Part shown: positions 7,446-26,447 of the stretch, piece after piece | Layout: each line of letters starts with the position of its first letter | Numbering within the stretch: the first letter of the stretch is position 1 | Assembly: GCA_029224465.1 (NCBI GenBank) | Contig: JAQXUQ010000001.1 | Span: 1 to 64,000, forward strand | Length of the DNA stretch: 64,000 nucleotides | Direction of reading: 5' to 3' | Source of the DNA: Bacillota bacterium | Lineage (GTDB): Bacteria; Bacillota; Clostridia; Lachnospirales; Lachnospiraceae | Notes under the pieces: model-generated | The model's input: the letters and a program-made list of their open reading frames with translations, nothing else | Database searches by the model: none | What the model was told of the DNA's origin: nothing | Program-made: the position numbers and the translations under genes

Positions 7446-7463
7446 TAACAGTTTTGAAAATTA

Positions 7464-8229: not shown

Positions 8230-8250
8230 GCGCTGCCAAGAGGGAAACCA

Positions 8251-11682: not shown

Positions 11683-12417
11683 TCACCCGCGCAAGTACTG
11701 CTCCAGATACTCCGCCACGGAACGGCTCATTTCCCGTGAAAAACCAGAGTTATATTTGCGGTTACAGAATGCGCGCATCCAGTCAGTATAATCACAGTTG
11801 CCACACTGCTTTCGGAACATGGACTCCAGTTCCTGTGCATCCCGGTGGTGATAATAGTTTTCCTGCACAATGTCTTTGAGGTCCATACGTTCCGGCTTTC
11901 TGCGGTCCATCTGCTGCGGAGTCGGATAACCGAAAACCAGCAGCGCCGCGGGAAAAACATAATCCGGAAGCGCCAAAAGCTTTCGGATCGTTTCGCAGTT
12001 TTCCATGACATCTCCGATGTAACAGGAGCCGATGCCCAGGCTTTCCGCCGCGGTAACGGCATTCTGCGCAGCAATCAGAGCGTCATCAATCGAAAGAATC
12101 AGATCCCCGGGGCCGGGCTTTCGCGGGTCACATCCGCAGGCCTTAAATGCCTCATACCATTTCAGACAGTCGGCGAGATACAGAAGGACCAGCTTCGCCT
12201 GCGCGATAAACGGCTGATGATCACAGGCGTCTGCCAGCGCCGACTGCACCTGCGGATCTGTGACCTTCAAAATCGTGTATAATTGCTGATTTCCGGCAGT
12301 CGGAGCCATTGTGGAGGCCTCGAGTATCACCTGCACTTTCTCCGGTTCGATATCCCTTTCGGTATAGGAGCGGACCGATTTCCTGTTTTTCAGCTGTTTC
12401 AATACTTCGTTCTGCAT
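11683..12417 (-). CDS. NADPH-dependent nitroreductase family protein (FMN)
   Basis: A 244-residue flavoprotein of the nitroreductase/FRP group, which reduces nitro or quinone compounds or flavin with NAD(P)H. The N-terminal FMN-binding pattern KNRKSVRSYTERDIEPEKV and MAPTAGNQQLYTI is clear, with LGIGSCYIGDV in the middle and VFGYPTPQQMDRRKPERM towards the end. The C-terminal extension with QCGNCDYTDWMRAFCNRK is Cys-rich and seen in some clostridial members. It is the only minus-strand gene in this section and stands alone. Confidence 0.88.
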   Translation of the reverse strand: MQNEVLKQLKNRKSVRSYTERDIEPEKVQVILEASTMAPTAGNQQLYTILKVTDPQVQSALADACDHQPFIAQAKLVLLYLADCLKWYEAFKACGCDPRKPGPGDLILSIDDALIAAQNAVTAAESLGIGSCYIGDVMENCETIRKLLALPDYVFPAALLVFGYPTPQQMDRRKPERMDLKDIVQENYYHHRDAQELESMFRKQCGNCDYTDWMRAFCNRKYNSGFSREMSRSVAEYLEQYLRG

Positions 12418-12610
12418 AGTCTGCCTTCCTCTCTGTTATCCAGTATATGGTTTTTCGCAGTCCGATTGCAATCAGATCATTTCATCCGGGCATTCTGTAA
12501 ATTGGAAAAAAGATCTCCAATTCGCTGAGCAGATCCCCAATGCAGCACCGGAACGCCCTCAATACCACCTCTCTGATACTATCTGAAAAATAATTCAATG
12601 AATCACAAAA

Positions 12611-12631
12611 AGTATGAAAAAAGTTCATACT
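12611..12631. promoter_or_regulatory. Perfect palindrome upstream of the ABC importer
   Basis: AGTATGAA (12611-12618), five bases, then its exact complement TTCATACT (12624-12631). The size and symmetry fit a dimeric repressor or activator site. It lies 53 bases before the permease start. No regulator gene next to it can be assigned. Confidence 0.5.
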
Positions 12632-12634
12632 TAT

Positions 12635-12674
12635 CTTTCCTGTGGTCTTTGCTTATGATGGAACCACAGGAAAG
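12635..12674 (+). promoter_or_regulatory. Hairpin covering the permease ribosome binding site
   Basis: A perfect 12-base inverted repeat: ctttcctgtggt (12635-12646) and accacaggaaag (12663-12674) with a 16-base loop. The right arm runs into the Shine-Dalgarno aaaggag (12671-12677), so the folded form would hide the start of the permease gene. It could also be a second operator. Confidence 0.5.
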
Positions 12675-12683
12675 GAGTTCACG

Positions 12684-13460
12684 ATGAATAAAAAGAAAAG
12701 CACATGGGACAAAATACCGAATGGCGTCTGGCTCCTGCTATCGCTTGGCGTTGCCGTCGCCCTCTGGCTGTTCGCTGCTTACCGGTGGCCGATTGTTTTT
12801 GCCAGCCCGAAAAAGGTGCTGGATGCCTTTATCTCCAAAGGTATTGATTCGTCGATCCTCTGGGAACACATCTGGGGTTCCCTGTCCAGAGTGTTGACAG
12901 GCTTCGGCATCGCGTTTGTTCTGGCAATTCCGACCGCGTTCCTGATGGCATGGTACGAACCGTTCTGCAGGATCGTCGAGCCGTGGATACAGTTTGTCAG
13001 AAACATACCGCCTCTTGCGTATGTTTTCCTGATTACGGCAGCGCTCGGCGTCGGCAATATCGGCAAAGTCACGGTCATCGTGATCGCGTCTTTCCTCGTA
13101 CAGGTTGTTACCGTGTATCAGGGCGTCAAAGGTGTTGACGCGACGCTGATCAAGGCGGCGAGAGTACTCGGCGCGGGCAACCGGGATATCTTCTTCAAGA
13201 TCATCATTCCGGCTTCGACACCGTACATTTTAGTAGCCGCAAGACTTGGCCTTTCGACTTCCCTGACGACCCTGATGGCATCGGAAATCGTCGGCGGCGA
13301 CAGAGGCCTCGGCATGATGATCCAGAAGGCCAGCGGTTATTATCAGATGGACGTCGTACTTCTGGGTATTATCATTCTCGGTATTATCGGTATCTCGTTT
13401 GAAAAGATCGTTAAATTCCTTGAAAGGAGGTTTACAGGATGGCAGGAAACAGTCCAGTAA
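12684..13460 (+). CDS. ABC transporter permease, TauT/SsuC/NitT family
   Basis: A 258-residue inner-membrane permease with about six hydrophobic segments. The cytoplasmic EAA loop that docks on the ATPase is visible as AARVLGAGNRDIFFKIIIPASTPYI around residues 155-180. The family imports small anions such as sulfonates, taurine, nitrate or thiamine precursors. I chose ATG 12684, preceded by aaaggag, over an earlier in-frame ATG at 12642. It overlaps the ATPase gene by 22 bases, so the two are translationally coupled. Confidence 0.9.
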   Translation: MNKKKSTWDKIPNGVWLLLSLGVAVALWLFAAYRWPIVFASPKKVLDAFISKGIDSSILWEHIWGSLSRVLTGFGIAFVLAIPTAFLMAWYEPFCRIVEPWIQFVRNIPPLAYVFLITAALGVGNIGKVTVIVIASFLVQVVTVYQGVKGVDATLIKAARVLGAGNRDIFFKIIIPASTPYILVAARLGLSTSLTTLMASEIVGGDRGLGMMIQKASGYYQMDVVLLGIIILGIIGISFEKIVKFLERRFTGWQETVQ

Positions 13461-14227
13461 AAGTCAAAATCGACCACGTCGTCAAGAAATTTAACGGCCG
13501 AAACGGAGAAATGACAGCACTGAACGGCGTGGATCTGGATATTCATGAAAATGAATTTGTCTGTGTCGTAGGACCGTCGGGCTGCGGAAAATCAACGCTG
13601 CTCAACATCATCGGAGGCCTGGACAAGCCGACAGACGGACATGTCTATGTAGACGGCAAAGAGGTCGACGGGCCGAGCCCGGAGAGGGGCATTGTTTTCC
13701 AGCAATACGCACTATTTCCCTGGCTGACGGTTGAGAAGAACGTCATGTTCGGCCTTCTGCAGCAGGGCGTTAACCGCAGCGATGCGCTCGAAACAGCTCA
13801 CAAATATCTGAAGATGGTAGATCTCGAAGAGTTTGCGAAAGCGTATCCGAAGGAGCTTTCCGGCGGCATGAAGCAGAGAGTCGCAATCGCGAGAGCCTAC
13901 GCGGTAAATCCGAAAGTCCTTCTGATGGACGAACCGTTCGGCGCGCTGGATGCGCAGACAAGAACACAGCTGCAGACCGAGCTTCTGGAGACCTGGGAAA
14001 AGGAGCAGAAGACCTGTTTCTTCATCACGCATGATGTAGAAGAGGCAATCATTCTCGCGCAGAGAGTCGTCGTCATGCACGCGCGGCCCGGCAGAGTAAA
14101 AGAGATCGTTGATATCGATATTCCTTATCCGAGAGATCAGGCGACTAAGATGTCCCCGAGATTCCTGGAGCTCAAGAATCATATCTGGAAACAGGTATAT
14201 GAGGAATATCTGGCAGTCCGCAAATAA
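13439..14227 (+). CDS. ABC transporter ATP-binding protein, TauB/SsuB family
   Basis: A 262-residue ATPase of the sulfonate/nitrate/taurine group. Walker A is GPSGCGKST near residue 42, the Q-loop VFQQYALFPWLTV, the signature LSGGMKQR, and Walker B VLLMDEPFGALD. The PWLTV sequence after the Q-loop is typical of TauB/SsuB/NrtD. RBS aaaggagg lies inside the end of the permease gene. It provides energy for the permease at 12684 and the lipoprotein at 14287. Confidence 0.93.
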   Translation: MAGNSPVKVKIDHVVKKFNGRNGEMTALNGVDLDIHENEFVCVVGPSGCGKSTLLNIIGGLDKPTDGHVYVDGKEVDGPSPERGIVFQQYALFPWLTVEKNVMFGLLQQGVNRSDALETAHKYLKMVDLEEFAKAYPKELSGGMKQRVAIARAYAVNPKVLLMDEPFGALDAQTRTQLQTELLETWEKEQKTCFFITHDVEEAIILAQRVVVMHARPGRVKEIVDIDIPYPRDQATKMSPRFLELKNHIWKQVYEEYLAVRK

Positions 14228-14286
14228 AATTCAGAAATATCCACACAGGTGGATCAGATAAAACAAGCACAACAGGAGGAATCATT

Positions 14287-15420
14287 ATGAAGAGAAGAGC
14301 ACTGGCAGTTCTCCTTACAGCTTCCATGGCTGCGATGCTTGCAGCCTGCGGCGGCAATTCCGGAGCGGCATCGTCCAAGGCGGATTCGGCAGCGACAACA
14401 GCAGCGACAGAAGCACCGGCCGCTGCGACAGAAGCGAAAACAGACAGCGCCGAAGCAGCAACAGACACAGCAGCGGCAGCACCTGCGAAGGAATATGAGC
14501 CCGTTACGGTCAGAGTTGCGTACATGCCGAACATGGGATCCGCAGCTTCGTTATTCGTCGGTATTGATCAGGGATATTTCGAGGAGTACGGAATCACCGT
14601 AGAGCCTGCGGAGTTCCAGGGCGGCCCCGCGGAGATTACGGCAATGGCTTCGGGCGACATTGACATTTCTCAGATCGGACACGGCGCGCACGCACTCTGC
14701 ATCGAAGGACAGGCGAAGATTTTCCAGATGGATCATACTACCTCTCTATCGGATGAAGTGGTCGCGAACAAGTCCCATGGTATCGAGAAGCCGGAAGATC
14801 TGAAGGGAAAGACCATCGCGGTCGCGTCCGGAACTTCTTCGGAAATCATCCTGCAGCAGGTACTCGCGAAAGCCGGTCTGACAGACAAGGATGTCAAGCT
14901 CGTTGAGATGGCAGTAGACGGCATGACAACCGCTATGGTTGCGGATCAGATTGATGCCTGCGCTACCTGGAGTCCGAATACGGTTACACTTAAAAATGCA
15001 TTGAAAGATAATTATGTATCCCTTGGTGGCAACAAGGACTTCCTTGATCAGGCGATTTTCCCGTCCAGCTATATCACGACCGAGAAGTACGCGAATGAGA
15101 ATCACGATGTGCTTGTTCGTTTCGCGGCAGCGCTCGACAAGGCACATGATTACCGCGCGGCACATACCGAGGAAGCTGCAAAGTCGCTTGCAAAGCATCT
15201 TGACGCTCCCGAAGAAACCATGCTCGCTTCGATTAAAGAAGCTGACTGGGATACCATCACGAAGATCGCGGGAGACATGGACGCGCTCAAGAAAGTTTAT
15301 GAGACCCAGCAGAATGTGTTCATCGCGAACGGCCGGATCAAGGAGAAGGTTGATACGGATTCCTATGTATTGTACGATGTGATGAAGGAAGGATACGATC
15401 TGTATTCCGCTTCCAAATAA
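14287..15420 (+). CDS. ABC substrate-binding lipoprotein, TauA/SsuA/NitT family
   Basis: A 377-residue lipoprotein. A signal peptide ends in the lipobox LAAC at residues 18-21, followed by an Ala/Thr/Glu-rich linker to about residue 70. The binding domain (VRVAYMPNMGSAASLFVGID, GPAEITAMASGDIDISQIGH) matches the periplasmic-binding group for sulfonates, taurine and thiamine pyrimidines. It likely delivers substrate to the permease and ATPase before it. The ligand cannot be told from sequence. The next genes, a two-component system and a sugar operon, suggest a link but start 127 bases later. Confidence 0.9.
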   Translation: MKRRALAVLLTASMAAMLAACGGNSGAASSKADSAATTAATEAPAAATEAKTDSAEAATDTAAAAPAKEYEPVTVRVAYMPNMGSAASLFVGIDQGYFEEYGITVEPAEFQGGPAEITAMASGDIDISQIGHGAHALCIEGQAKIFQMDHTTSLSDEVVANKSHGIEKPEDLKGKTIAVASGTSSEIILQQVLAKAGLTDKDVKLVEMAVDGMTTAMVADQIDACATWSPNTVTLKNALKDNYVSLGGNKDFLDQAIFPSSYITTEKYANENHDVLVRFAAALDKAHDYRAAHTEEAAKSLAKHLDAPEETMLASIKEADWDTITKIAGDMDALKKVYETQQNVFIANGRIKEKVDTDSYVLYDVMKEGYDLYSASK

Positions 15421-15499
15421 CGGATGGCCGCACGAGGAACGCAGCATTGAAACAGTATGCCCGAATCCGTTCTCTGCAGCCGCAAAGCTTCAATGAGGG

Positions 15500-15533
15500 A
15501 GGCCGGGTGCTCTGATACAGGGCCCCGGTCTTT
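15500..15533 (+). terminator. Possible terminator or attenuator after the binding protein
   Basis: An 8-pair stem with one G-T pair (aggccggg with cccggtct) followed by a short T run. It may partly separate the importer from the sensor kinase. The T run is short, so read-through is likely. Confidence 0.35.
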
Positions 15534-15547
15534 AAGGTGTCGGATGC

Positions 15548-17086
15548 ATGTTGATTTTAATGCTGGCTATATCAGCCCTTATCTTCTTACTGATCGGCAT
15601 TCTCAAAAAGAGTGACCGCTCCTTTTCGCTCCTGCTTCTGAGTGCCACCGAGACGATCATGTTCGGCGGCATCATTATCTACATCGCGATGATGGGCGGT
15701 ACGGCCGCAAAGGAGGTAAGACTTCTGTTCGGCTCCTCGGACATTCAGCACTGGCTGCGGGCGCTGCCGATTCATCTGGACCGGCTCGGATATACCGTCG
15801 CGGTATGCAGGCTGCTGTTTCCGTGGCTATATCTGCGGGTATCGCTGGAATTCTGCAATACCGGAATGATCCGGAGGCGCGCGCGGCTGATCCGGATGGT
15901 GACGTTCCTGCCGACGGCATTGTTTCTGGCTTATTACTATCCGCCGGTCTTCCGGTGGTTCGCGGAGCTGCACTTTGAAATGCAGGTAGTTATGATGAAG
16001 CTTGTCTTCGCATGGCTTCTGCTGATTATTGCGGTTTCGTTCGCTCTGCTGCTTCTCGAATATGCACGAACGACGATTCCGATGTTCCGCAGGGACTTTT
16101 TCTATATCCTGCTGTATCTTTTCGCGGCGGCTGTTTTATATCTGCTGTATGCGACAAAGGATCCGTCGCAGATCTACAACATGTTCATCTCCGAGTACAT
16201 TCAGCTGGGGATCAGCAATTATATCAGTTCCGCCCTTTCCTCCCGTGGCTGGATTGTGATCTTTATCATTACGCTGTTATCCACGGCCGCCGGAACTTAT
16301 GGCGTTTTCCGGTATGTGCAGGTGGAGTACTCCGAGAACCGGGAGGACCTGCGGCTGGAACGGCAGTTTGATCTGGCGGGCATGGGCGTGTCTGTTTTCG
16401 CGCACGGGATGAAGAATCAGGTGCTCACGGCACAGGTTCTGCATAAAAGAATGAAAAAGGAACTTGCCAAAGACGAGCCGGACATCGAACAGCTGCGGCG
16501 CATCGAAGAGCAGCTGAGCGATCTGAACGTCACAATGAAAACGAGGCTGGAGGAATTCTATTCGGCGGTCAGAAACAACGCGCTGACCCTTGTGCCGGTT
16601 CCGGCGGAGCAGATCGCGGAGCTCGCCGTGGAACGCTTCCATGAGAAGTATCCGGAAGGACAGGTGCAGACGCAGATCTGCACCCGCAGGAAGGTGCTGG
16701 CCGACAAGACAGCAATGTCCGAAGCCGTTTACAATCTTCTGACCAACGGGTATGAGGCCGCGGCTGCCGCGGGAAGAACGCCGCAGGTGCGGCTTTCGGT
16801 ACGTGCGGAAAGAATGTGGACCATCTTCGAGGTTACGGACAACGGAAACGGCATACCGCCTTCGCTTCGCGGCAAAATCTTCGAGCCGTTTTATACCAGT
16901 AAGAGTAAAAACACAAACTGGGGCATGGGACTTTTCTATGTCCGCAGAATTGTGCGCAAACATTTCGGTCACCTGAAAACGGTTTCCGAAGAAGGAAAGG
17001 GAAGTACTTTCCTTCTGATGCTTCCGCGTTACGGAGATGAAGAAGGAGGAAAACACCGCTCTTCCCGGCAGGAGGCAAAGTCATGA
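15548..17086 (+). CDS. Membrane sensor histidine kinase
   Basis: A 512-residue kinase. The N-terminal half has about seven to eight hydrophobic helices (LILMLAISALIFLLIGIL, FYILLYLFAAAVLYLLYA) with little outside the membrane. The dimerisation part has a His candidate in VFAHGMKNQVLTAQ near residue 282. The C-terminal ATPase has the N box (AVYNLLTNGYEAA), NGNGIPP and GMGLFYVRRIVRKHFG. Its ATGA overlap with the response regulator shows they are partners. The signal may be sensed within the membrane. It heads the sugar operon that follows. Confidence 0.88.
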   Translation: MLILMLAISALIFLLIGILKKSDRSFSLLLLSATETIMFGGIIIYIAMMGGTAAKEVRLLFGSSDIQHWLRALPIHLDRLGYTVAVCRLLFPWLYLRVSLEFCNTGMIRRRARLIRMVTFLPTALFLAYYYPPVFRWFAELHFEMQVVMMKLVFAWLLLIIAVSFALLLLEYARTTIPMFRRDFFYILLYLFAAAVLYLLYATKDPSQIYNMFISEYIQLGISNYISSALSSRGWIVIFIITLLSTAAGTYGVFRYVQVEYSENREDLRLERQFDLAGMGVSVFAHGMKNQVLTAQVLHKRMKKELAKDEPDIEQLRRIEEQLSDLNVTMKTRLEEFYSAVRNNALTLVPVPAEQIAELAVERFHEKYPEGQVQTQICTRRKVLADKTAMSEAVYNLLTNGYEAAAAAGRTPQVRLSVRAERMWTIFEVTDNGNGIPPSLRGKIFEPFYTSKSKNTNWGMGLFYVRRIVRKHFGHLKTVSEEGKGSTFLLMLPRYGDEEGGKHRSSRQEAKS

Positions 17087-17769
17087 AGAAGATAGGAGAA
17101 TATCTGATCCGGGTCATGGTTGCCGAAGACATCGACATCCTGCGGGAAGACTTCTGTGAAATCATCGGCGAACAGGAGGACATGGAGATTGTCGGAAGCG
17201 CGCCGAGCGGTCAGGAAATCGTGCAGCTCGCGCTGGAACGGAAGCCCGATATTGTCCTGATGGATATAGAAATGGAGACGCTGACCGCCGGTATCGATGC
17301 CGCAGAGGAAATACATAGAAGCAGTCCCGGAATCAAAATTATCTTTATGACGGCGCATGAAACCGACGATATGATTCACTCCGGCATGGGAACCGGCGCC
17401 GTCGATTACATTGTCAAGGGTTGCGATGACGAAGTCCTTCTGGAACATATCCGGAGGGCATACGATGGAACAACCGTGCTGGAAAGCAATGTGTCGCAGT
17501 CCATCATGAAAGAGTATAACCGTCTGCGCAAAAGCGAGCAGTCGCTGGTCTTTTTCATCAACAACGTATCGCATCTTACCAATTCCGAGCGGGAGATCAT
17601 AAGACTCCTGCTGGACGGTAAAAAGATCAGGGAAATTGCCCGGATCAGAAGCGTCGAAGAGGTTACGATCAAGACGCAGATCAAAGGTCTTCTGCACAAA
17701 TTCGGCTGCAGCAGAAGCAGGGAAATTGTAGAGCTGATCAGGGAGCTCGGACTGGAGAAGCTGTTTTGA
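17083..17769 (+). CDS. NarL/LuxR-type response regulator
   Basis: A 228-residue regulator. The receiver domain has the acidic pocket at E15-D16, the phospho-acceptor Asp at about 61 (VLMDIEME), Thr in FMTAHE, and Lys in YIVKG. The C-terminal DNA-binding helix-turn-helix is LTNSEREIIRLLLDGKKIREIARI then VTIKTQIKGLLHKFG, a LuxR-type fold. It overlaps the kinase by 4 bases and is 18 bases before the NagB-like gene, so it is probably co-transcribed with, and controls, the sugar operon. Confidence 0.9.
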   Translation: MKKIGEYLIRVMVAEDIDILREDFCEIIGEQEDMEIVGSAPSGQEIVQLALERKPDIVLMDIEMETLTAGIDAAEEIHRSSPGIKIIFMTAHETDDMIHSGMGTGAVDYIVKGCDDEVLLEHIRRAYDGTTVLESNVSQSIMKEYNRLRKSEQSLVFFINNVSHLTNSEREIIRLLLDGKKIREIARIRSVEEVTIKTQIKGLLHKFGCSRSREIVELIRELGLEKLF

Positions 17770-17787
17770 CACAGCAGGGGGAACAGA

Positions 17788-18612
17788 ATGCAAAACATGG
17801 ACTACTATCAGATTTCGGCAGAAGAACTGGGGAAGAATTCAAAAATTCCGATTTTAAAGCTTTCGGATTCCGGTGAGGTTTTTTATGAGCTCGCGCTTGA
17901 AATGAAGGAAACGATCGAGAATAACAATCAGGCCGGCAGACATACCGTCTTTATCTGTCCGGTCGGACCTGTCGGACAATATCCGATTTTCGTTCGCCTG
18001 GTCAACCGCGACAAGGTGTCGCTGAAGAACTGCTGGTTCATCAACATGGATGAATATCTCAATGACGCTGAAACTTATATCAATGAAGACAGCCCGTTGT
18101 CTTTCCGCGGCTTCATGAATCGCTCCGTTTATGAAAAGATTGATCCGGAGCTTGTCATGCCGCAGGAGCAGAGAATCTTCCCTGATCCGAAGGCGCCGGA
18201 AAAGATTCATGAAATTATCACACGCCTTGGCGGCGTCGATGTCTGCTTCGGCGGAATCGGCATCAACGGGCATCTGGCGTTCAATGAGGCGCAGGACGAA
18301 CTTTCCGCAGAGGAATTCGCAAAGCTCCCGACAAGGGTGCTGACAATCAGCCGTGAAACAAGGACGAGCAACGCGATCGGCGACAGGAGCGGCGCGATTG
18401 ACGCGATGCCGAAAAAGGCTGTCACGATCGGAATCAATGAAATTCTGGCAGCCAGAAAAGTCAGGATCGGCGTCTTCCGCGACTGGCACCGCGCAGTTAT
18501 CCGGCAGGCTGCTTACGGCGAAGTCAGCGGACATTTCCCGGCAACGCTTCTGCAGCGGCACGCGGACGCGATGATCATCACAAACGCGAACGCCGCGAAG
18601 CAGCCGTTTTAA
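17788..18612 (+). CDS. NagB-family sugar isomerase/deaminase with altered phosphate site
   Basis: A 274-residue member of the glucosamine-6-phosphate deaminase family. Catalytic landmarks are kept: Asp88 in NMDEY, His162 and Glu167 in INGHLAFNE; the Asp next to the His in E. coli is Asn160 here. Residues that bind the 6-phosphate in E. coli NagB are not kept. The phosphate loop PTGGTP becomes PVGPVG (58-63), Arg172 aligns with Ile197, and Lys208 aligns with Arg235. I infer a changed substrate, perhaps an amino sugar that is not 6-phosphorylated. It starts the enzyme run of the operon. Confidence 0.82.
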   Translation: MQNMDYYQISAEELGKNSKIPILKLSDSGEVFYELALEMKETIENNNQAGRHTVFICPVGPVGQYPIFVRLVNRDKVSLKNCWFINMDEYLNDAETYINEDSPLSFRGFMNRSVYEKIDPELVMPQEQRIFPDPKAPEKIHEIITRLGGVDVCFGGIGINGHLAFNEAQDELSAEEFAKLPTRVLTISRETRTSNAIGDRSGAIDAMPKKAVTIGINEILAARKVRIGVFRDWHRAVIRQAAYGEVSGHFPATLLQRHADAMIITNANAAKQPF

Positions 18613-18627
18613 GGAGGACTACAAGTC

Positions 18628-19776
18628 ATGCTGTTAAAAAACGGAGAGTTTTATCTGAATCACAGTTTCATTCAGGCGGATTTGCGAATTAGAGATGGCA
18701 GAATTGATTCTTATGGCGAACTTTCGGCAGAGCCGGAGGAAGAAGTTACAGACCTTTCGGGGAGCAGGGTGATTCCCGGATTTTTCGATATTCATACGCA
18801 TGGAGCATACGGAACGGATGTCAATGCCGCGACGCCGGAGGAGCTGGAGAAAATCTGCCGCTTTTTTGCGAGTCAGGGGACAACAAGCTGGCTGGGGTCC
18901 GTTTTGACGGATACAGAAGAGGCGACCTGCCGCGCGATCGACGCGTTCCTTGGATGGCAGAAACTGCCGCACCACGGAGCGGTCATGGAAGGCATTCATC
19001 TCGAGGGGCCGTTCCTTTCGAAGGACTACAAGGGGGCAATGCCCGAAAAACTGCTGCGGATGCCGGACCTTGACCTGATCCGCAGGTATCAGGAGCGGGC
19101 GGAAGGAAACATTCGTTATATCACGGTAGCACCCGAGCTTCCGGGCGTCATTTCGATGATTCCGAAGCTGAAGGAAATGGGCATTCAGGTCGCGATTGGG
19201 CATTCCGGCGCAAGTTATGAGACTTCGATGGAAGCGATCCGGGCAGGGGCCATGGCTTCCACGCATACGGGAAACGGCATGAAGCTGCTGCATCAGCATT
19301 TCCCCTCGATTTTCGGCGCGGCGCTGGAGTCGCAGGATCTGTACTGTGAAATGATCTGTGACGGACGGCACCTGCATCCCGCGACAGTCCGTATCATCAT
19401 CAAGGCAAAAGGACTGGACAGAGTCGTTGCCGTGACGGATTCGATTATGGCGGCGGGTCTGCCGGACGGCAGGTACAAGCTGGGCGTAAACGACGTCGTA
19501 GTCGAAAAGGGCGACGCGAGGCTTGCAAGTGACGGTACGAGAGCGGGGAGCACGCTGACGACAGGACAGGCGCTGCGGAACCTCCGCCGCTTTACGCAGT
19601 TTTCTCTGGCGGAACTTGTGCCTGCCCTGACAGAAAATCCGGCGAAGCTGATCGGGCTCGATCAGCGGATAGGAACCATCAATCCCGGAAAGGAAGCCAG
19701 TCTTCTTGTCCTGAAAAACGGACATGTCGCGAAAACCATGGTGCATGGTCAGTTCGTATATGAAGAAGCGCAGTAA
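18628..19776 (+). CDS. nagA: NagA-family N-acetyl amino sugar deacetylase
   Basis: A 382-residue amidohydrolase. Metal and catalytic residues are present: HTH (56-58), Glu126 in HLEGPF, His192 in GHSGAS, His213 in STHTGNGM and Asp271 in VTD. In NagA the segment THLFNAM....HRxPG supplies the phosphate-binding Arg (Arg227 in E. coli). Here it reads THTGNGMKLLHQHFPS, with His224 at the Arg position. Deacetylation of an N-acetyl amino sugar is likely; whether the substrate is a 6-phosphate is doubtful. The gene begins 15 bases after the NagB-like gene. Confidence 0.85.
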   Translation: MLLKNGEFYLNHSFIQADLRIRDGRIDSYGELSAEPEEEVTDLSGSRVIPGFFDIHTHGAYGTDVNAATPEELEKICRFFASQGTTSWLGSVLTDTEEATCRAIDAFLGWQKLPHHGAVMEGIHLEGPFLSKDYKGAMPEKLLRMPDLDLIRRYQERAEGNIRYITVAPELPGVISMIPKLKEMGIQVAIGHSGASYETSMEAIRAGAMASTHTGNGMKLLHQHFPSIFGAALESQDLYCEMICDGRHLHPATVRIIIKAKGLDRVVAVTDSIMAAGLPDGRYKLGVNDVVVEKGDARLASDGTRAGSTLTTGQALRNLRRFTQFSLAELVPALTENPAKLIGLDQRIGTINPGKEASLLVLKNGHVAKTMVHGQFVYEEAQ

Positions 19777-19795
19777 CGGACAGCAGGATGAAGAT

Positions 19796-21055
19796 ATGTT
19801 GCGATTAGAGGTGAATTCCGACATCACAGGTTTCTCGAAGGAACTGCAGGATATGATGAACGCGCATGCGGTTCTTCTGGAAACGACGCAGAAGGGAGAT
19901 CCTGCGTACAGAGACTCCCTCGGCTGGCTGGACACCGGCATCTGTGCCGGTGAAAAGGAGCTGGAGCGGATAGAGAAAAAGGCGGCGCAGATCCGGGAGA
20001 ACGCGGACGCGTTTGTGCTGATCGGCGTCGGCGGCTCCAATAACGCGGCGAGAGCTGTCATTGAAGGGACCGCGAAAAGAAACGTGTGCGAAGTTATCTA
20101 CGCCGGCAACACACTGCATCCCCGCGTTTTGCTGGAAACGCTGCGAAAGCTTGACGGCAGGGAGTTTTACATCGACTGCATCGCGAAGAATTTCGAAACG
20201 CTGGAGCCGGCCTCCGCGTTCCGGGTTCTGCGGCAGTACATGGACAGCAGGTATGGAGCTTCCGCGGCGGAGCGCGTGATCGCGACCGGAACACCGGGCA
20301 GTTCCCTGTGGCGGCTTTGTCAGGAAGAAGGGTATGACTTTTTCGATTTTCCGGAGACGGTGGGCGGCAGATACTCGGCCGTCACAAATGTAGGCCTGCT
20401 TCCGATGGCTGCCGCCGGTATTGATGTGAAGGAGCTTGTCAGAGGAGCCAATGATATGCAGATGCAGCTGCGTTCGCTCGGGCCGCAGGAGAATCCTGCG
20501 TACCGGTACGCCTGCCTTCGCAGGCTCTTTGACAGGCACGGATACCATATCGAGATGCTTTCTTCCTTTGAGCCGGAGCTGCGATACTTCTATCTGTGGT
20601 GGAAGCAGCTGTTTGCGGAAAGCGAAGGTAAAGACGGAAAAGGTATTTTCCCGGTCACCGGCGAATTCTCCGAAGAGCTGCATTCGACCGGGCAGTATAT
20701 TCAGGACGGGCCGCCGGCTATATTTGAGACATTTCTGGATTTCCGGCGGCAGCAGGACAGTTTTGTCATAGAGCCGGATTCACGCAAAGATGATCTGGAC
20801 TATCTGAACGGCCTCGATTTTTACAATATCAACAAAGCCGCGCAGCAGGCGACAATCAAGGCGCACAGCGAAAAGCTTCCGGTCATGACAATTTCGGCAG
20901 ACGCTCCGGATGCGTATCATTTCGGACAGCTCTTTTATTTCTTTGAGTTCGCCTGCGCTCTCTCGTGCGGAATTCTCGGAGTGAATCCGTTTGACCAGCC
21001 GGGAGTAGAGGCTTACAAACAGCGGATGTTTAAACTACTTGGCAAATCGAAATGA
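19796..21055 (+). CDS. Glucose-6-phosphate isomerase family protein with altered phosphate loop
   Basis: A 419-residue Pgi homologue of the Bacillus type. Active-site sequence is well kept: IGVGGSNNAARA (76-87), GGRYSAVTNVGLLP, FYLWWKQLFAESEGKDGKG, the catalytic region HSTGQYIQDG, and NPFDQPGVEAYKQRMF. The phosphate-binding loop, ISKSGTTTEP in Bacillus Pgi, is IAKNFETLEP here (129-138): Ser to Ala, Ser to Asn and Thr to Glu. A Glu in that loop should repel a phosphate. An aldose-ketose isomerase of another sugar is the best reading. Start ATG 19796 is chosen by position after nagA. Confidence 0.85.
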   Translation: MLRLEVNSDITGFSKELQDMMNAHAVLLETTQKGDPAYRDSLGWLDTGICAGEKELERIEKKAAQIRENADAFVLIGVGGSNNAARAVIEGTAKRNVCEVIYAGNTLHPRVLLETLRKLDGREFYIDCIAKNFETLEPASAFRVLRQYMDSRYGASAAERVIATGTPGSSLWRLCQEEGYDFFDFPETVGGRYSAVTNVGLLPMAAAGIDVKELVRGANDMQMQLRSLGPQENPAYRYACLRRLFDRHGYHIEMLSSFEPELRYFYLWWKQLFAESEGKDGKGIFPVTGEFSEELHSTGQYIQDGPPAIFETFLDFRRQQDSFVIEPDSRKDDLDYLNGLDFYNINKAAQQATIKAHSEKLPVMTISADAPDAYHFGQLFYFFEFACALSCGILGVNPFDQPGVEAYKQRMFKLLGKSK

Positions 21056-21086
21056 GCGGCGCAGGCTTTGGAAAGGAACGCAGCGA

Positions 21087-22262
21087 ATGAGTGAAGCAGG
21101 GAAAGAAACTGTTCTGATTGTACACGGCGGCGGACCGACAGCCGTCATGAACGCCTCTCTTTACGGAGCGGTGATGGAAGCACGGCAAAACAAATCCGCC
21201 TACAGAATTCTCGCCGCGAAGAACGGAACCGGAGGGCTCCTGCGGGAAGAGTTCATCGATCTTACGGATGTGCCGGAAGACAGACTGCAACTTCTGTTAA
21301 AGACACCGGGCAGCGCGATCGGAACGTCCAGAGATCAGCTGGAACCACCGGAATATGAGGCTATGGTACGGATTCTCGAAAAACATCAGATCGGCGGCGT
21401 CCTTATGAACGGCGGCAACGGCACGATGGATACCTGTGGCAAGCTCCATAAAACCTGCCGGGCGCTGCAGAAAGACATCCTTGTCATGGGAATTCCCAAG
21501 ACCATGGATAATGACCTGGCGATTACGGATCACAGCCCGGGATACGGGAGCGCAGCGAGATATATTGCGCAGAGTACGAGGGAACTTGCAGCGGATATCA
21601 AAGGTCTTCCGATTCATGTCGTCGTGCTGGAGGTTTCCGGCAGGAACGCGGGATGGATCGCGGCAGCCAGCGCTCTTGCTGCGGATGGAAATGCGCCGGG
21701 ACCGGATCTGATCTATCTGCCGGAGCGGGCGTTCGATGAGGAACGGTTTATTCAGGATGTCAGCCGTCTATTAAAGGTCAAGAAGGGAATTCTGGTGGTC
21801 GCCAGCGAAGGCCTCAAAGACAAAGAAGGTAAGCCGATTGTCGAACCGGTTTTTCAGGTTGGAAGATCAACGTATTTCGGCGATGTGGGAACGCACCTCG
21901 CGAATGTGGTGATCCGGCGGCTCGGATACAAAGCCCGCGGCGAAAAGCCGGGTCTTCTCGGAAGATGTTCGGTTCTGCTGCAGAGCAAGGTTGACCTTGA
22001 AGAAGCGGAGCTTGCCGGAACACTGGCCTGCCGGGCGCTCCTGCAGGGAAAGACCGGCAAAATGGTCGGCTTCCGCCGTGTCTCCACGAAGCCTTACAAA
22101 GTAGTTCCGCTTCTGATCGATATTGATGAGGTCATGATGCATGAGAAGAAACTGCCGGACGCGTATATCAACGCGGAGGGAAACGGTGTTACACAGCAGT
22201 TCACGGATTGGGCAAGGCCTTTGATCGGGGGAGACCTTGGCGAGATGATTTCGTTCAACTGA
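21087..22262 (+). CDS. Phosphofructokinase (PfkA superfamily), substrate uncertain
   Basis: A 391-residue PfkA-fold kinase that would phosphorylate O1 of a ketose or ketose phosphate. The phosphoryl site reads GGNGTMD (109-115) and PKTMDND (137-143). The E. coli positions 104/124 are therefore Gly/Lys, a pair seen in ATP-using plant and trypanosome enzymes; PPi-using ones have Asp/Lys. The sugar-binding MGR is SGR (184-186). The Arg pair in the C-terminal half (KARGEKPGLLGRC) is kept. ATG 21087 with aaagga is preferred over the upstream reading from 21039. Confidence 0.85.
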   Translation: MSEAGKETVLIVHGGGPTAVMNASLYGAVMEARQNKSAYRILAAKNGTGGLLREEFIDLTDVPEDRLQLLLKTPGSAIGTSRDQLEPPEYEAMVRILEKHQIGGVLMNGGNGTMDTCGKLHKTCRALQKDILVMGIPKTMDNDLAITDHSPGYGSAARYIAQSTRELAADIKGLPIHVVVLEVSGRNAGWIAAASALAADGNAPGPDLIYLPERAFDEERFIQDVSRLLKVKKGILVVASEGLKDKEGKPIVEPVFQVGRSTYFGDVGTHLANVVIRRLGYKARGEKPGLLGRCSVLLQSKVDLEEAELAGTLACRALLQGKTGKMVGFRRVSTKPYKVVPLLIDIDEVMMHEKKLPDAYINAEGNGVTQQFTDWARPLIGGDLGEMISFN

Positions 22263-22276
22263 AGGGAGGATTACAT

Positions 22277-23431
22277 ATGCTTGTTCCGATGAGAGCAATT
22301 CTGGAAGCGGCAGACAAGGGAAATTACGCGCAGGGCGCTTTCAATGTTAACGCGGTCTGTCAGATCAAGGCTGCGGTCGAAGTGCATGAGATGCTGAGAA
22401 GCCCGGCGCTTTTGCAGGGGGCGGACCTGGCAAACGGCTTTATGGGCGGCTGCGCGGAGTTTGCGCATTCCACGCTGGAAGACAAGAAAAAAGGCGCGAA
22501 AAACATCGCGGATGCCGTCAGAAAATACGGACAGGACAGCAGGATTCCGGTTGCGATTCATCTGGATCACGGCAGAGATTTTGACTCCTGTGTGGCAGCG
22601 GTGGAAGGCGGATATACGTCTGTAATGATTGATGGCAGCGCACTGCCGTACGAGGAGAATGTCGAGCTTACGAGAGAGGTTGTAAAATACGCGCATGCGC
22701 GCGGCGTTACCGTGGAAGGCGAACTCGGGGTTCTTGCCGGTGTCGAGGATGATGTATTCGCGGAGACATCGACATATACGAATCCTCTGACAGCCATTGA
22801 CTTTTTCCGGAAAACCGGATGCGACGCGCTTGCAATCAGTTACGGGACAAAACACGGTGCCAACAAGGGAAAAGACGCGAAAATCCGTAAGGAGATCGTC
22901 ATCGCCATCAAGGAGTGCATGCGGCATGAGCATATTGACGGCTTTCTGGTAAGCCATGGCTCTTCGACCGTCCCGGAATATATCGTTACGGAGCTGAACG
23001 CTCTCGGCGGCAAAATCACAAATGCCTATGGCATTGATGTCAATCAGCTGGTGGAAGTTTCTCACTGCGGCATTAACAAAATCAATGTAGATACGGACCT
23101 TCGCCTTGCGGTTACAAGAAATCTGCGGGAGCTTTTCACGCTTGATCCGTCGCTGCAGGGCAGCGCGTCAATCGGCGGCGTCTATGAGCTTCTGATGAAA
23201 AATCCGGAGAAATTTGATCCGCGCGTTTTCTTTGTGCCGCTGATGGATATGGTTATGTACGGAAACGAGAAGGACGAGGATGTGCAGCGGCTTGCATGCG
23301 CCGTCGAAGACGGCGTCAAAGAAGCGCTCGCGCCGCTGATCGTCAAATTCGGCAGTTACGGGAAGGCGGCGCAGGTTGAGCCGGTTTCCCTGGAAGAAAT
23401 GGCGCAGAGATATCAGAAGGCAGGTATATAA
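22277..23431 (+). CDS. Class II fructose-bisphosphate aldolase family protein
   Basis: A 384-residue zinc aldolase. Zinc and catalytic motifs are HLDHGRDFD, VEGELGVLAG, SYGTKHGANKG, LVSHGSST and KINVDTDLR. It is longer than the 285-310 residues of common clostridial class II aldolases, with an extended N-terminal region. HGGS of typical members reads HGSS here. It would split a ketose 1,6-bisphosphate or analogue into dihydroxyacetone phosphate and an aldehyde. ATG 22277 is preceded by agggagg and lies 14 bases after the kinase gene. Confidence 0.87.
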   Translation: MLVPMRAILEAADKGNYAQGAFNVNAVCQIKAAVEVHEMLRSPALLQGADLANGFMGGCAEFAHSTLEDKKKGAKNIADAVRKYGQDSRIPVAIHLDHGRDFDSCVAAVEGGYTSVMIDGSALPYEENVELTREVVKYAHARGVTVEGELGVLAGVEDDVFAETSTYTNPLTAIDFFRKTGCDALAISYGTKHGANKGKDAKIRKEIVIAIKECMRHEHIDGFLVSHGSSTVPEYIVTELNALGGKITNAYGIDVNQLVEVSHCGINKINVDTDLRLAVTRNLRELFTLDPSLQGSASIGGVYELLMKNPEKFDPRVFFVPLMDMVMYGNEKDEDVQRLACAVEDGVKEALAPLIVKFGSYGKAAQVEPVSLEEMAQRYQKAGI

Positions 23432-23502
23432 GAAAAGCGCAGGCTGTTATGTTTTGGCGGCGATGCGGTGAAGACTTTGCAATCATCAGGAGGATGGGCT
23501 AC

Positions 23503-25029
23503 ATGAAACACTTTGAATTTGAATACGGACAGGGAACGCTGGGCGCGGATCTTCCGGATACAACGGACGTTTTTATTCCGGGAGAAACTGTGGCGGACCC
23601 GCCTTTTATTCCGGAGGATCAGCTGGAGGCCGCGTACAAGGAAAGTCTCGCGCATCCGATCGGCATGCCGAGGGTTTCGGAGCTCGTACATAAGGGATCA
23701 AAAGTAGTATTCATCGTACCGGACAGAGTAAAAGGCGGAGAGCAGCCGACCAGTCACAGGAAGCTTTCGATCCGCTATATTCTCGAGGAGCTCTACAGCG
23801 CAGGCGTTGAGAAGAAGGACATCCTGTTCATCATTTCCAACGGCCTGCATCCGAGAAGCAAACCGGAGGACGCGCTCGCGATTTTCGGACCGGAGCTGTA
23901 TAATGAATTCTGGCACAGCGGCCAGATCATCAGCCATGATTCGGAAGACAAGGAACACATGGTGGATCTGGGGACCACGAAGCGCGGCGACAAGGTGCAC
24001 ATGAACCGGTTTGTTTTTGAGGCGGATCTGCCGATCCTGATCGGCCACGTGCAGGGCAATCCTTACGGCGGATATTCGGGCGGATACAAGCACAGCGCGA
24101 CCGGGATTACGGACTGGGAATGTATCGGTGCGCACCATGTGCCTTCGGTCATGCATCAGCCGGATTTCACGCCGGTCAACAACGGCTCTCTCATGCGGCA
24201 TAAGTTCAATGAGATCAGCATGCACATGGAAGAGAAGATGGGACATCCGTTCTTCTGCTGCGACGCGGTTCTGGATTCAAAATCGCGGCAGATCGCGATT
24301 TTCTCGGGATACGCGAAAGAGATGATGCCGCAGTCGTGGAAGATTGCGGACAAGCGGACTTACGTGCACTGGGCGGAGAAGAAATACGACGTGCTCGTTT
24401 TCGGTATGCCGCAGAAATTCCACTATGGCGACGGCATGGGGACAAATCCGATCATGATGATGCAGGCGCTCTCCGCGCAGGTTCTGCGGTTCCGCCGTGT
24501 CATGAGTGATCACTGCGTCATTCTCTGCGCGTCCACCTGCAACGGATATTTCCACGACGAGCTCTGGCCGTATCTGCGGGAGCTTTACGATATGTTCCAG
24601 AAGGACCATATGAATACGCTTCCTGATATGAACCGCTATGGCGAATACTTTGCGACAAACGAGGAGTACATCCGCAAATACCGCTTTACCAATGCGTTCC
24701 ATCCGTTCCACGGTTTCTCGATGATGAGCTGCGGACACATCGCGGAAATGAATACCAGCGCGATCTACATCGTCGGCGCGCAGGAGCCCGGGTACGCAAG
24801 AGGCATGGGACTGAAGACACGGGCGACGTTTGAAGAAGCGCTTGAAGACGCGAAGAAGAAATATGTCGGCGCGAATCCGAATATTCTGGCACTGCCGCGG
24901 ACATTCAAGACAGCATCCGTACATCTTTGCATGAAAGATGCGGGCCTGGACTGCATGGACGCGTATGGAAATCATCCCGGAGAAGCGAAATTCGGCAGCG
25001 GGGAAGCTGCGGAAGGGGATATGGTCTGA
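23503..25029 (+). CDS. LarA-family (DUF2088) nickel-pincer racemase/epimerase homologue
   Basis: A 508-residue LarA homologue. LarA uses a nickel-pincer nucleotide to racemise lactate; relatives act on malate, gluconate and other 2-hydroxyacids. The His of NGLHPR (His116) matches the first catalytic His, and Lys196 in YSGGYKHSATG matches the pincer-attachment Lys. Ten residues before that Lys, where L. plantarum LarA has its second catalytic His174, this protein has Asn186 (VQGNPYGGYSGG). The protein also has a long C-terminal part. larB, larC and larE are not in the window. ATG 23503 follows caggagg. Confidence 0.82.
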   Translation: MKHFEFEYGQGTLGADLPDTTDVFIPGETVADPPFIPEDQLEAAYKESLAHPIGMPRVSELVHKGSKVVFIVPDRVKGGEQPTSHRKLSIRYILEELYSAGVEKKDILFIISNGLHPRSKPEDALAIFGPELYNEFWHSGQIISHDSEDKEHMVDLGTTKRGDKVHMNRFVFEADLPILIGHVQGNPYGGYSGGYKHSATGITDWECIGAHHVPSVMHQPDFTPVNNGSLMRHKFNEISMHMEEKMGHPFFCCDAVLDSKSRQIAIFSGYAKEMMPQSWKIADKRTYVHWAEKKYDVLVFGMPQKFHYGDGMGTNPIMMMQALSAQVLRFRRVMSDHCVILCASTCNGYFHDELWPYLRELYDMFQKDHMNTLPDMNRYGEYFATNEEYIRKYRFTNAFHPFHGFSMMSCGHIAEMNTSAIYIVGAQEPGYARGMGLKTRATFEEALEDAKKKYVGANPNILALPRTFKTASVHLCMKDAGLDCMDAYGNHPGEAKFGSGEAAEGDMV

Positions 25030-25880
25030 TGAAACATATTTTACTGAATTTAAAGCGTTTTGATGTACCTTCGGAGCTCGGGGGTGTCAACAGACTAGCG
25101 CCTGTCACGGACTGGGCAGGTGAAATAGTCAGGAAGACGCAGGACGAACTCGGCGGATATGATCCGAAAGAGGTGGAATTCATTGATTTTATGCCGGAGG
25201 CGCACATTCAGAATGCCGTGAAAGCGCTCTGTGAAGGGAGCGCACTGCAGATCGGCAGCCAGGGTATTTTCCGAAGTGATGTGACACCGGGCGGTAATTT
25301 CGGCGCCTTCACGACAAATCTTCCCGCGGCGGCAGTCAAGGCACTTGGCGCGAAAGCTGCTCTGATCGGACACTGCGAAGAGAGAAACGATAAAAAGGAG
25401 ATTCTTGCGGCGGCCGGTGTAACCGGGAATGCTGCGGCGGATGTCGTGAATAAGCTGCTGAATGAAGAAATTCTTCGCGCGCAGGCCAGAGGACTCAAGG
25501 TTGTTTACTGCATCGGCGAGACTTCAGAAGAACAGGAGCGCTGGCAGGAAGTGCTTGGCGCGCAGCTGGACAAGGGACTTGCGGGTGCGGATAAAAAGAG
25601 CATTGTCATCGCCTATGAACCGGTGTGGAGTATCGGACCCGGGAAGACACCTGCCGGGAAGGACTACATCACGATGATCGCCCGTTTTGTAAAGGAAAGA
25701 ACAGGCGGAATCGATGTTGTTTACGGCGGCGGACTCAAGAAAGATAATGCCGCGATGCTGGCATCGATCCCCGAAATCGACGGCGGGCTGATTGCCTTGA
25801 CCCGTTTTCAGGGAGAGATCGGTTTTTATCCGGATGAATATCTGGAAATCATCAGAATCTATCTGAACGCGGCAGTCTGA
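25029..25880 (+). CDS. Triose-phosphate isomerase family protein
   Basis: A 283-residue TIM-barrel isomerase, about 30 residues longer than usual. The catalytic set is present: Asn and Lys in LNLKRFD (common form NWKMN), His in GHCEER, Glu in AYEPVWSIG, and the phosphate-binding YGGGLKKDNA. Changes from the norm are Ser to Cys and Arg to Glu in GHSERR, and Ser to Gly in YGGS. It overlaps the LarA-like stop by one base (TGATG). It may interconvert triose phosphates or act as a tetrose-phosphate isomerase, as some paralogues do. Confidence 0.85.
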   Translation: MKHILLNLKRFDVPSELGGVNRLAPVTDWAGEIVRKTQDELGGYDPKEVEFIDFMPEAHIQNAVKALCEGSALQIGSQGIFRSDVTPGGNFGAFTTNLPAAAVKALGAKAALIGHCEERNDKKEILAAAGVTGNAAADVVNKLLNEEILRAQARGLKVVYCIGETSEEQERWQEVLGAQLDKGLAGADKKSIVIAYEPVWSIGPGKTPAGKDYITMIARFVKERTGGIDVVYGGGLKKDNAAMLASIPEIDGGLIALTRFQGEIGFYPDEYLEIIRIYLNAAV

Positions 25881-25895
25881 ACGACAGGTGGAAAC

Positions 25896-26447
25896 ATGCA
25901 GCGAAAATCGAGCAGGGAAATTCTGGCGGAGTCGTTCCGCGAGCTGGCGCAGAGCAGGCCGGCGGACAGGATCACCGTACAGGAAATTACACAGAACTGC
26001 GGATATTCTCCGGCGACCTTCTACCGCCAGTTCCGCGACAAGTATGATCTGATCGCCTGGGATTACAGCGCACATTGCAGCGCGATTATGGATAACGCCG
26101 GAGCGGACGGCAAAACATGGGAAGCCGTCATGCGGGAAGGCTGCGATTATCTGTGCAGTCAGCGAAAATACATCGAAAATCTCCTGCAGAATACCGGCGG
26201 GCAGGATTCCTTCTTCCGGTACATGTCACTGGTGAATGCGCAGCTGGTGACGCAGGCGGTTACAGCCAAACGCGGGGAAGAGACGCTTTCGAAGGAACTT
26301 ACCGTTTGCATCAAGGTCTTTGCGTATGGAATCGCGCAGCTTCTTTGCGAATTCCTTGCGGAGCCGCAGACACTTTCGGACGCGGATCTGCCCGGCTATC
26401 TGTGTAAAGCGCTTCCCGAACCGCTGGTTCCCTATTTATTGACATAA
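25896..26447 (+). CDS. TetR family transcriptional regulator (DhaS-like)
   Basis: A 183-residue regulator. The helix-turn-helix is ADRITVQEITQNCGYSPATFYRQFRDKYDLI near residues 21-50. The C-terminal domain resembles that of dihydroxyacetone-kinase-type TetR regulators, with short helices and LVNAQLV. It is the last gene of the sugar operon, 15 bases after the TIM-like gene, and is followed by a strong terminator. It probably senses a pathway intermediate, in addition to the two-component system at the operon head. Confidence 0.85.
   Translation: MQRKSSREILAESFRELAQSRPADRITVQEITQNCGYSPATFYRQFRDKYDLIAWDYSAHCSAIMDNAGADGKTWEAVMREGCDYLCSQRKYIENLLQNTGGQDSFFRYMSLVNAQLVTQAVTAKRGEETLSKELTVCIKVFAYGIAQLLCEFLAEPQTLSDADLPGYLCKALPEPLVPYLLT

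Follow-up and report, generated by a model that had tools for sequence, protein, structure and literature searches.

The closest described relatives of the locus considered here are of several kinds. The canonical nag operon turns N-acetylglucosamine 6-phosphate (GlcNAc6P) into fructose 6-phosphate through NagA and then NagB. In sulfo-EMP2 (SqvD, SqiK, SqiA), a sugar carrying an anion other than phosphate at C6 is processed with the logic of the Embden-Meyerhof-Parnas (EMP) pathway, through a kinase of family PF00365 and an aldolase of family PF01116. According to the excerpted text of PMC10154618, colonic mucins carry 6-sulfo-GlcNAc as a major substitution, and there are gut bacteria that free the sulfated sugar with enzymes of glycoside hydrolase family 20 (GH20); such 6-sulfo-GlcNAcases, from Bifidobacterium bifidum and Prevotella, would supply free GlcNAc 6-sulfate. 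Finally, for the nickel-pincer enzymes LarABw and LarASp, the excerpted text of PMC12611868 reports an Asn in place of the second catalytic His, no detected lactate racemisation by LarASp, an inferred covalent ligand of unassigned identity and glycolysis-like neighbours, and leaves substrate and reaction open. Here we analyse an operon of a Lachnospiraceae bacterium, lying in a window of 64,000 nucleotides (the whole stretch analysed: contig JAQXUQ010000001.1, positions 1 to 64,000, assembly GCA_029224465.1), which joins relatives of NagB, NagA, Pgi, Pfk, a class II aldolase (Fba), LarA and TIM. We propose from sequence comparison, with a probability of about 0.5, that it imports and breaks down a 6-O-sulfated N-acetylhexosamine, most likely GlcNAc 6-sulfate, whose sulfate would not be removed at uptake; it would thus consume what the GH20 enzymes release.

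The operon had already been described from the letters of the window (the original prediction) as a private glycolysis-like set in which three unrelated folds had changed at the same functional point, so that the substrate would be an N-acetyl amino sugar with no 6-phosphate, or with another group in its place. This interpretation is partly supported. The genes do lie in one operon on the + strand, the three folds are altered as proposed and are joined by the TIM-like protein as a fourth, and co-occurrence and separate clades back the idea that an N-acetyl amino sugar has an EMP-like route of its own. Regarding the substrate, the option of another group at C6 is favoured over that of a bare sugar, given the basic residues of the NagB-, TIM- and Pfk-like proteins; the phosphate site has been rebuilt, not lost. 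The upstream importer and two-component genes, the TIM-like residue change and the sulfate or sulfonate option had not been part of the prediction.

Phosphate sites altered in four unrelated folds

In nearly all aligned relatives, the NagB-, NagA-, Pgi- and TIM-like proteins are without the residues that grip phosphate in the model enzymes, and their catalytic residues are intact. These phosphate-binding residues and their numbering are what we take them to be, save for those stated in the original prediction. The alignments give the changes and their conservation directly.

The most extensive change is found in the NagB-like protein, aligned as 84 system sequences (82 distinct) against 26 canonical relatives. 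The P-T-G-G-T-P loop has become PVG--PVG, as had been read from the window, with gaps at the Gly43/Thr44 positions in 84/84. At Arg172, the 26 canonical sequences all have Arg and the system sequences have Asp (79/84), Glu (3/84), Ser (1/84) or Ala (1/84); at Lys208, Lys in 26/26 is opposed to His in 84/84. The predicted loss of both residues therefore holds throughout, while its register has to be corrected: the aligned residues here are Asp199 and His234, not Ile197 and Arg235. Residue 200, which adjoins Asp199, is Arg in 28/84 and Leu in 44/84. Over the former Lys208 stretch, F230, R231, W233, H234 and R235 are invariant (F-R-x-W-H-R, 84/84), and the catalytic D72/H143/E148 are present in every system sequence. 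Since new invariant Arg, His and Trp residues fill the site, it has been remodelled and not emptied; the original prediction had counted other residues filling the phosphate sites as evidence against itself, and for NagB this is partly what we find. By score, loop, Arg172 and Lys208, the protein does not qualify as a glucosamine-6-phosphate deaminase: it falls below the equivalog cut-off (Table 1), and Pfam gives no match for it up to E = 1.

The changes foreseen in the next two enzymes were borne out. In the NagA-like protein, Arg227 is replaced by His in 74/74 aligned relatives, and retained in five aligned chains of the PDB (two of them variants of one protein); the catalytic and metal residues E126/H192/H213/D271 are present in 74/74. 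It thus scores above the cut-off for GlcNAc6P deacetylases yet is without the Arg227 phosphate contact. The Pgi-like protein (23 system sequences against 9 canonical) carries the predicted IAKNFETLEP segment: A-K-N-F-E-T is found in 23/23, with the Glu in 22, as opposed to S/T-K-S-G-x-T in the 9 canonical relatives. S209 has become Ala and T211 Asn in 23/23, with the Glu two positions on in 22/23; the S159, Lys210 and T214 positions are retained, as are the catalytic E276/H297/K409/R193 (23/23).

For TIM (55 system sequences against 21 canonical), we take the phosphate loops to be Ser211 and Gly232-Gly233. Ser211 is Gly in 55/55, and Gly232 and Gly233 are Ala and Leu, each in 54/55 with one gap. 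The clade gains Arg12 (55/55) and Arg261 (53/55), and the catalytic Lys11, His117 and Glu199 are present in 55/55. The Pfk-like protein (49 against 8) shows no clear loss of phosphate residues: the Arg243 and Arg252 positions are retained (R285/R294, 49/49), and residue 288 is Lys in 48/49, where the canonical relatives have Glu in 8/8. In the aldolase (64 against 22), Ser50 is Ala in 64/64 and Ser in 19/22 canonical sequences. System and canonical sequences are split with a support of 1.0 in each of the FastTree trees, which covered NagB, Pgi, TIM, Pfk and Fba; the separate co-occurring clades that the original prediction suggested looking for among the first three enzymes are thus recovered for NagB and Pgi, and found as well for TIM, Pfk and Fba.

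A rebuilt NagB site, two arginines gained in TIM, and a Pfk that keeps Arg243/Arg252 and gains a Lys point away from a bare sugar and towards a different anion at C6, and we consider it likely that the route is EMP-like and acts on a sugar whose C6 bears an anion other than phosphate. The phosphate residues missing from NagB, NagA and Pgi would be explained by a neutral, unphosphorylated N-acetylhexosamine, the favourite of the original prediction. This option is very improbable, though: basic residues arise as invariant features of both the NagB and the TIM site and are retained in Pfk, Arg277 and Arg317 of the aldolase are present in 64/64, and such a sugar needs neither a sulfonate-type importer nor TauE.

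A conserved gene set beside core metabolism

The seven enzyme genes follow one another head to tail on the + strand (Table 1, where the starts of Pgi, Pfk, Fba, LarA and TIM are the preferred ones). Family models support their assignments, several of them with scores below the equivalog cut-off. The operon extends 5' into an importer of the SsuABC/TauABC type, belonging to the ATP-binding cassette (ABC) transporters, and a two-component system, at 12642-17769; the response regulator gene stops 18 bases 5' of the NagB-like gene, and is preceded by those of the histidine kinase and the importer. The solved chain nearest to the binding protein is the taurine-binding TauA 6ssy, with SsuA 2x26, nitrate-type and pyrimidine-binding proteins also matching. 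The operon differs from the canonical nag operon, with which it shares the NagA-then-NagB chemistry and the catalytic residues, in its replaced phosphate-binding residues, its sulfonate-type import and the private Pfk, Fba, TIM and LarA that follow.

Table 1. Genes of the operon and the regulator gene that follows it (window coordinates).
Feature	Position	Strand	Model scores and remarks
ABC importer permease (BPD_transp_1), partner of SsuA/TauA-like binding protein	12642..13460	+	PF00528, 85 bits
ABC importer ATPase, nearest SaoA and TauB	13439..14227	+	SaoA 268 bits, taurine ATPase 258 bits (NCBIfam), each below cut-off
Substrate-binding lipoprotein, SsuA family	14287..15420	+	TIGR01728 SsuA_fam, 152 bits vs cut-off 163.5
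Sensor histidine kinase	15548..17086	+	PF02518
Response regulator with LuxR-type DNA-binding domain	17083..17769	+	PF00072 and PF00196
NagB-like deaminase/isomerase, 6-phosphate site rebuilt	17788..18612	+	nagB model, 107.6 bits vs cut-off 236.9
NagA-like deacetylase, Arg227 -> His	18628..19776	+	TIGR00221, 292.3 bits, above cut-off 225.65
Pgi-like isomerase, ISKSGT -> IAKNFET, optional in relatives	19793..21055	+	PRK14097, 415 bits vs cut-off 443
Pfk-like kinase, PRK14072 clade	21084..22262	+	407 bits, above pyrophosphate-dependent Pfk (PPi-Pfk) subfamily cut-off 273
Class II ketose-1-phosphate aldolase (Fba), Ser50 -> Ala	22274..23431	+	best model 258 of 511 bits; cbbA 213 of 216
LarA-like nickel-pincer nucleotide enzyme, His174 -> Asn subfamily	23494..25029	+	nearest solved chain 9q3j
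TIM-like isomerase, catalytic Lys/His/Glu present, phosphate loops altered	25023..25880	+	tim model, 77 of 130.6 bits
TetR/DhaS-like regulator directly 3' of operon	25896-26447		found in 0/36 relative loci

To study the system in other organisms, we searched a genome collection for relatives of the NagB-like protein; of 120 found, the best 80 (60-97% identity) were kept. The carriers among these are mainly Clostridia (Gemmiger, Flavonifractor, with F. plautii at L088, Intestinimonas and others), plus Collinsella and bins labelled Chloroflexi, Flexilinea and Spirochaetales. An animal or animal gut site is named in the record titles of at least 7 of the 80, soil or sea in none of the titles as printed. 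The clade is patchy, occurring in 5/117 sampled related genomes (source genome included) at 59-100% identity, with other matches at 22-35%.

All loci of at least 19 kb among the 80 relatives, 36 in number, were compared with 20 control stretches (18-20 kb each) that surround other nagB genes in related genomes, using the same probes and cut-offs; the controls were hand-picked, mainly for long contigs, from nagB matches in the 117 sampled genomes. The enzyme genes co-occur strongly, as counted directly in system (of 36) and control (of 20) loci: NagA 33 vs 8, Pgi 14 vs 0, Pfk 30 vs 0, Fba 34 vs 0, TIM 30 vs 0 and LarA 30 vs 0. So do those of the importer (permease 32 vs 0, ATPase 32 vs 5, binding protein 32 vs 0) and, in about half of the loci, of the two-component pair (kinase and regulator each 19 vs 0). 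TauE of either type was found in 18/36 system loci and 0/20 controls, DUF4838 in 6 vs 0, ROK and a ManA-like protein each in 4 vs 1, and YihU and TetR in none of either set. With 14/36 and 0/36 loci respectively, Pgi is optional and TetR lies outside the system; the TetR gene, which falls within the coordinates of the original prediction (17788-26447), was ruled out as a member by its absence from 36/36 relative loci.

The operon is a second set of enzymes in its genome, not the organism's only glycolysis, an option ruled out by paralogues on other contigs: a further NagB above the Pfam cut-off (C16), a long Pgi of 416 bits (C2), a TIM of 36% identity (C6), Pfks of 28-31% (C14, C26) and an aldolase of 41% (C14). 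These are presumably the canonical enzymes, and their presence marks the operon as a dedicated set. They also bear on whether the operon is a diverged paralogous GlcNAc6P and fructose 6-phosphate pathway in which phosphate is held by other residues. The Arg, His and Trp that refill the NagB site, the basic residues kept by Pfk and aldolase, and the NagA score above the GlcNAc6P deacetylase cut-off would all be expected of such a pathway. We nevertheless hold it to be improbable: in four unrelated folds the phosphate site is altered almost without exception among the aligned relatives, the genome has further genes for 6-phosphates in other places, and the open reading frames of the window operon, as we read them, include neither a phosphotransferase system nor a kinase that would make a 6-phosphate. 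The ROK proteins near the system (11/80 loci) would probably not provide one either, as they carry a MarR-type DNA-binding domain and look like regulators.

Candidate substrate and route

The gene neighbourhood bears on which anion might take the place of phosphate. TauE genes are found in 25/80 loci. The source genome contains a second LarA module, on contig C30 (L204, G000:C30:1-20000, at 2295-14578), whose Pfk and LarA are 54% and 82% identical to the window proteins; the TIM-like gene has no match in this stretch. It includes a sugar ABC importer, a KbaY-like aldolase, a TauE permease, an aldose epimerase-like protein, a SIS-domain protein nearest to the glucosamine-6-phosphate deaminase GlmD (151 of 580 bits), and a protein whose best NCBIfam match is the sulfoquinovose isomerase SftI (E 1.6e-62). 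LarA thereby keeps company with sulfosugar-like and amino-sugar enzymes at two places in one organism. Homologues of the E. coli YihQ and YihU, and matches to the SftI-like probe, were found in 0/80 loci, SftI-like genes occurring only in the C30 module and at L237; AldA, FucO and YihU were found in 0/36 loci, other families of sulfolactaldehyde reductases and dehydrogenases not having been probed. A sulfur oxyanion at C6 is favoured because of the TauE counts (18/36 vs 0/20), the type of importer, the paralogous module with its SftI-like gene and the lack of an enzyme of the AldA/FucO/YihU type in the 36 loci.

The sulfur oxyanion could also be a sulfonate. In that case, a 6-deoxy-6-sulfo hexosamine or a sulfoquinovose-like sugar would be cleaved in the manner of sulfo-EMP2 to dihydroxyacetone phosphate (DHAP) and sulfolactaldehyde, the latter being converted by the TIM-like protein and LarA before export. 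The kinase and aldolase do belong, at the level of Pfam families, with SqiK (PF00365) and SqiA (PF01116), the SftI-like gene of the paralogous module would fit, and TauE occurs in some published sulfoglycolysis clusters, as excerpted, as it does here. But entry, which is by SqvD there, is by NagA-, NagB- and Pgi-like proteins here, with a TIM-like protein and LarA added, and the parts usual in the excerpted descriptions of sulfo-EMP clusters are lacking: we found neither a sulfoquinovosidase with its isomerase (SqvD/YihS) nor a sulfolactaldehyde reductase or dehydrogenase of the probed families, YihQ and YihU being at 0/80 and AldA and FucO at 0/36. Moreover, NagA and NagB would require an N-acetyl amino sulfosugar, and we know of none from nature. 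We therefore hold the sulfonate to be an unlikely but not negligible alternative.

Signs of an amino sugar come from NagA, NagB and a DUF4838 glycoside hydrolase, present in 13/80 loci. A sequence search of the latter against the PDB gave nothing useful; its fold model matches GH115 glucuronidases as well as GH20C/GH84 hexosaminidases. This glucuronidase-like side would also suit a carboxylate at C6, that is, an amino-sugar uronate from which the aldolase would make tartronate semialdehyde, the TIM-like protein hydroxypyruvate, and on which LarA would act as a racemase. By reasoning, the scheme is attractive in that a 2-hydroxyacid suits LarA, an aldose-ketose pair suits TIM and no dehydrogenase is needed. 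However, it leaves TauE (18/36) and the SftI-like paralogue unexplained, and the binding protein is nearest to sulfonate binders, which makes the carboxylate rather improbable.

We thus infer sulfate as the anion and GlcNAc 6-sulfate as the sugar, whose source would most likely be host mucin or glycosaminoglycans. Several findings weigh against this proposal. The importer and TauE families are broad, and the solved relatives of the binding protein include nitrate- and pyrimidine-binding proteins. The SftI-like protein of C30 scores far under the model cut-off (212 of 700 bits), and an iron alcohol dehydrogenase lies about 3 kb past that module (L204 17950-19110), after an opposite-strand regulator and a kinase. 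GAPDH is found in 1/36 loci (L078). The top rows of the DUF4838 model are of the GH115/GH138/GH67 type, not hexosaminidases alone. Sulfatase genes of the formylglycine (FGly) type lie near only 2/100 loci in a motif scan, so that most of these loci have no independent mark of sulfated sugars. Among the enzymes, the aldolase retains Arg277 and the FDPR Arg317 in 64/64, and may therefore also accept phosphate, its cbbA score being just short of the cut-off; the Glu gained by Pgi is not obviously suited to an anion; and the His at the E. coli Arg162 position of Pfk (49/49) had to be dropped as a lost contact, since the 8 canonical sequences mostly have Ser, Thr or Met there. A YihS-like gene in 1/80 loci (L103) was likewise dropped as a sign of sulfoquinovose, because it scores as a D-mannose isomerase. 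Support from PF00884 in whole genomes (12/15, a list that wrongly includes G234 and leaves out G293 and G425) was set aside as well, the family being too broad to be informative.

For GlcNAc 6-sulfate, the route would run as follows. Under two-component control, the sugar would enter through the SsuABC-like importer, be deacetylated by the NagA-like enzyme to glucosamine 6-sulfate, and deaminated and isomerised by the NagB-like enzyme to fructose 6-sulfate. Pgi-like enzymes, and ManA-like ones in some relatives, would bring in non-amino sugars. The Pfk-like kinase would then phosphorylate fructose 6-sulfate at C1, and the class II aldolase would cleave the product to DHAP, which could join normal glycolysis, and glyceraldehyde 3-sulfate, to be handled by the TIM-like enzyme and nickel-pincer LarA. 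The sulfur compound would finally exit, in many relatives via TauE. From import to aldol cleavage, the proposal follows the chemistry of the families; the action on a 6-sulfate, the order of steps and the chemistry of TIM and LarA are what we infer.

With its acid/base residues and without phosphate loops, the TIM-like protein could isomerise glyceraldehyde 3-sulfate or expel its sulfate. Quite tentatively, it might form with LarA a new NAD-free disposal of sulfated trioses, in which an aldose-ketose step or a sulfate elimination would precede the internal transfer of a hydride on the nickel-pincer cofactor. The single histidine of LarA would fit such a one-way transfer, in which the hydride does not go back to its carbon of origin. 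The products might be sulfate and either lactate or pyruvate. An end route through methylglyoxal and lactate was a further candidate considered. If true, the joint action of the TIM-like protein and LarA would be a desulfation without sulfatase, and a LarA reaction beyond the racemisations and epimerisations described in the excerpted text of PMC12611868. A search of open-licence PMC literature for glyceraldehyde or dihydroxyacetone sulfate, fructose-6-sulfate, glucosamine 6-sulfate and sulfatase-independent catabolism gave no such route among the matches listed, which is not proof of absence. At the level of organisms, gut carriers such as Flavonifractor, Gemmiger, Collinsella and Intestinimonas would eat sulfated host sugars without a sulfatase, linking mucin sulfation to growth. 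The matched set of at least four folds with the same proposed switch from phosphate to another anion could be tested directly with purified enzymes.

LarA-centred loci and variant arrangements

The solved chains nearest to LarA are by far 9q3j (1003 bits, E 3.4e-301) and 9q2u (809 bits). Its active site comprises His115, Asn185 (in place of His), Lys195, His211, His306 and Tyr307 in the window protein and 44/44 relatives, so that it shares with the LarABw/LarASp subfamily both the His174 -> Asn replacement and the same active-site residues. The route proposed here would give a physiological role to this subfamily, solved with no known substrate according to the excerpted text of PMC12611868. 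Beyond the neighbours noted in that text, the comparison across loci made here covers an importer, an exporter, the full gene set and the residue changes. The mass of the unassigned LarASp ligand in the same text, 316.5 Da, gave no usable clue. A LarB-like gene (AIRC domain) is found in 7/80 loci (L045, L048, L050, L095, L097, L099, L103) and LarC (PF01969) in 3/80, as expected if a nickel-pincer LarA works with the system; the source genome encodes LarC, which inserts nickel into the LarA cofactor.

As the system loci had been found through NagB, which biases them towards NagB, a second scan was made with LarA. LarA of this kind (E up to 1e-100) occurs in 12/391 Clostridia genomes (source included), as 15 genes. 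Around the 13 genes outside the source genome, in surroundings that sometimes end at contig ends, the TIM-like gene is found at 11/13 and hence is the most constant partner of LarA, followed by Pfk (7/13), a NagA relative (7/13, two only 35% identical) and NagB (1/13). One locus (L237) joins TIM, LarA, an SftI-like gene (28%) and counterparts of the importer and of the two-component pair. At L231 (G293) and L233 (G425), LarA of the same subfamily lies next to a YihU-like dehydrogenase and other ABC genes, with no TIM, Pfk, Fba, NagA or NagB, and possibly serves a different pathway. This YihU-like neighbour (31% identity) was not used as evidence of a sulfolactaldehyde reductase, given its broad family and loci without TIM, Pfk and Fba.

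Some relatives depart from the layout of the window. The ManA-like protein lies near the system in 7/80 loci (L039, L040, L041, L046, L054, L057, L062), and may bring a mannose derivative into the route; at L040, its gene (14162-15235, 58 bits vs cut-off 116) stands between Pgi and Fba. In a Gemmiger locus (L044), further genes stand in the interval from NagA to Pgi (12203-19152); they encode a LacI regulator, a GH3-like product, a sugar transporter of the MFS_2 type and a sulfatase of the FGly type whose motif reads CVPSR. In G078, the NagB-like gene is the sole system enzyme on its contig (L034, G078:C116), and other contigs (L206, L207) carry Pfk-TIM-LarA-LarB-LarC and an aldolase with a TauE gene, which may reflect either a split arrangement or an effect of assembly.

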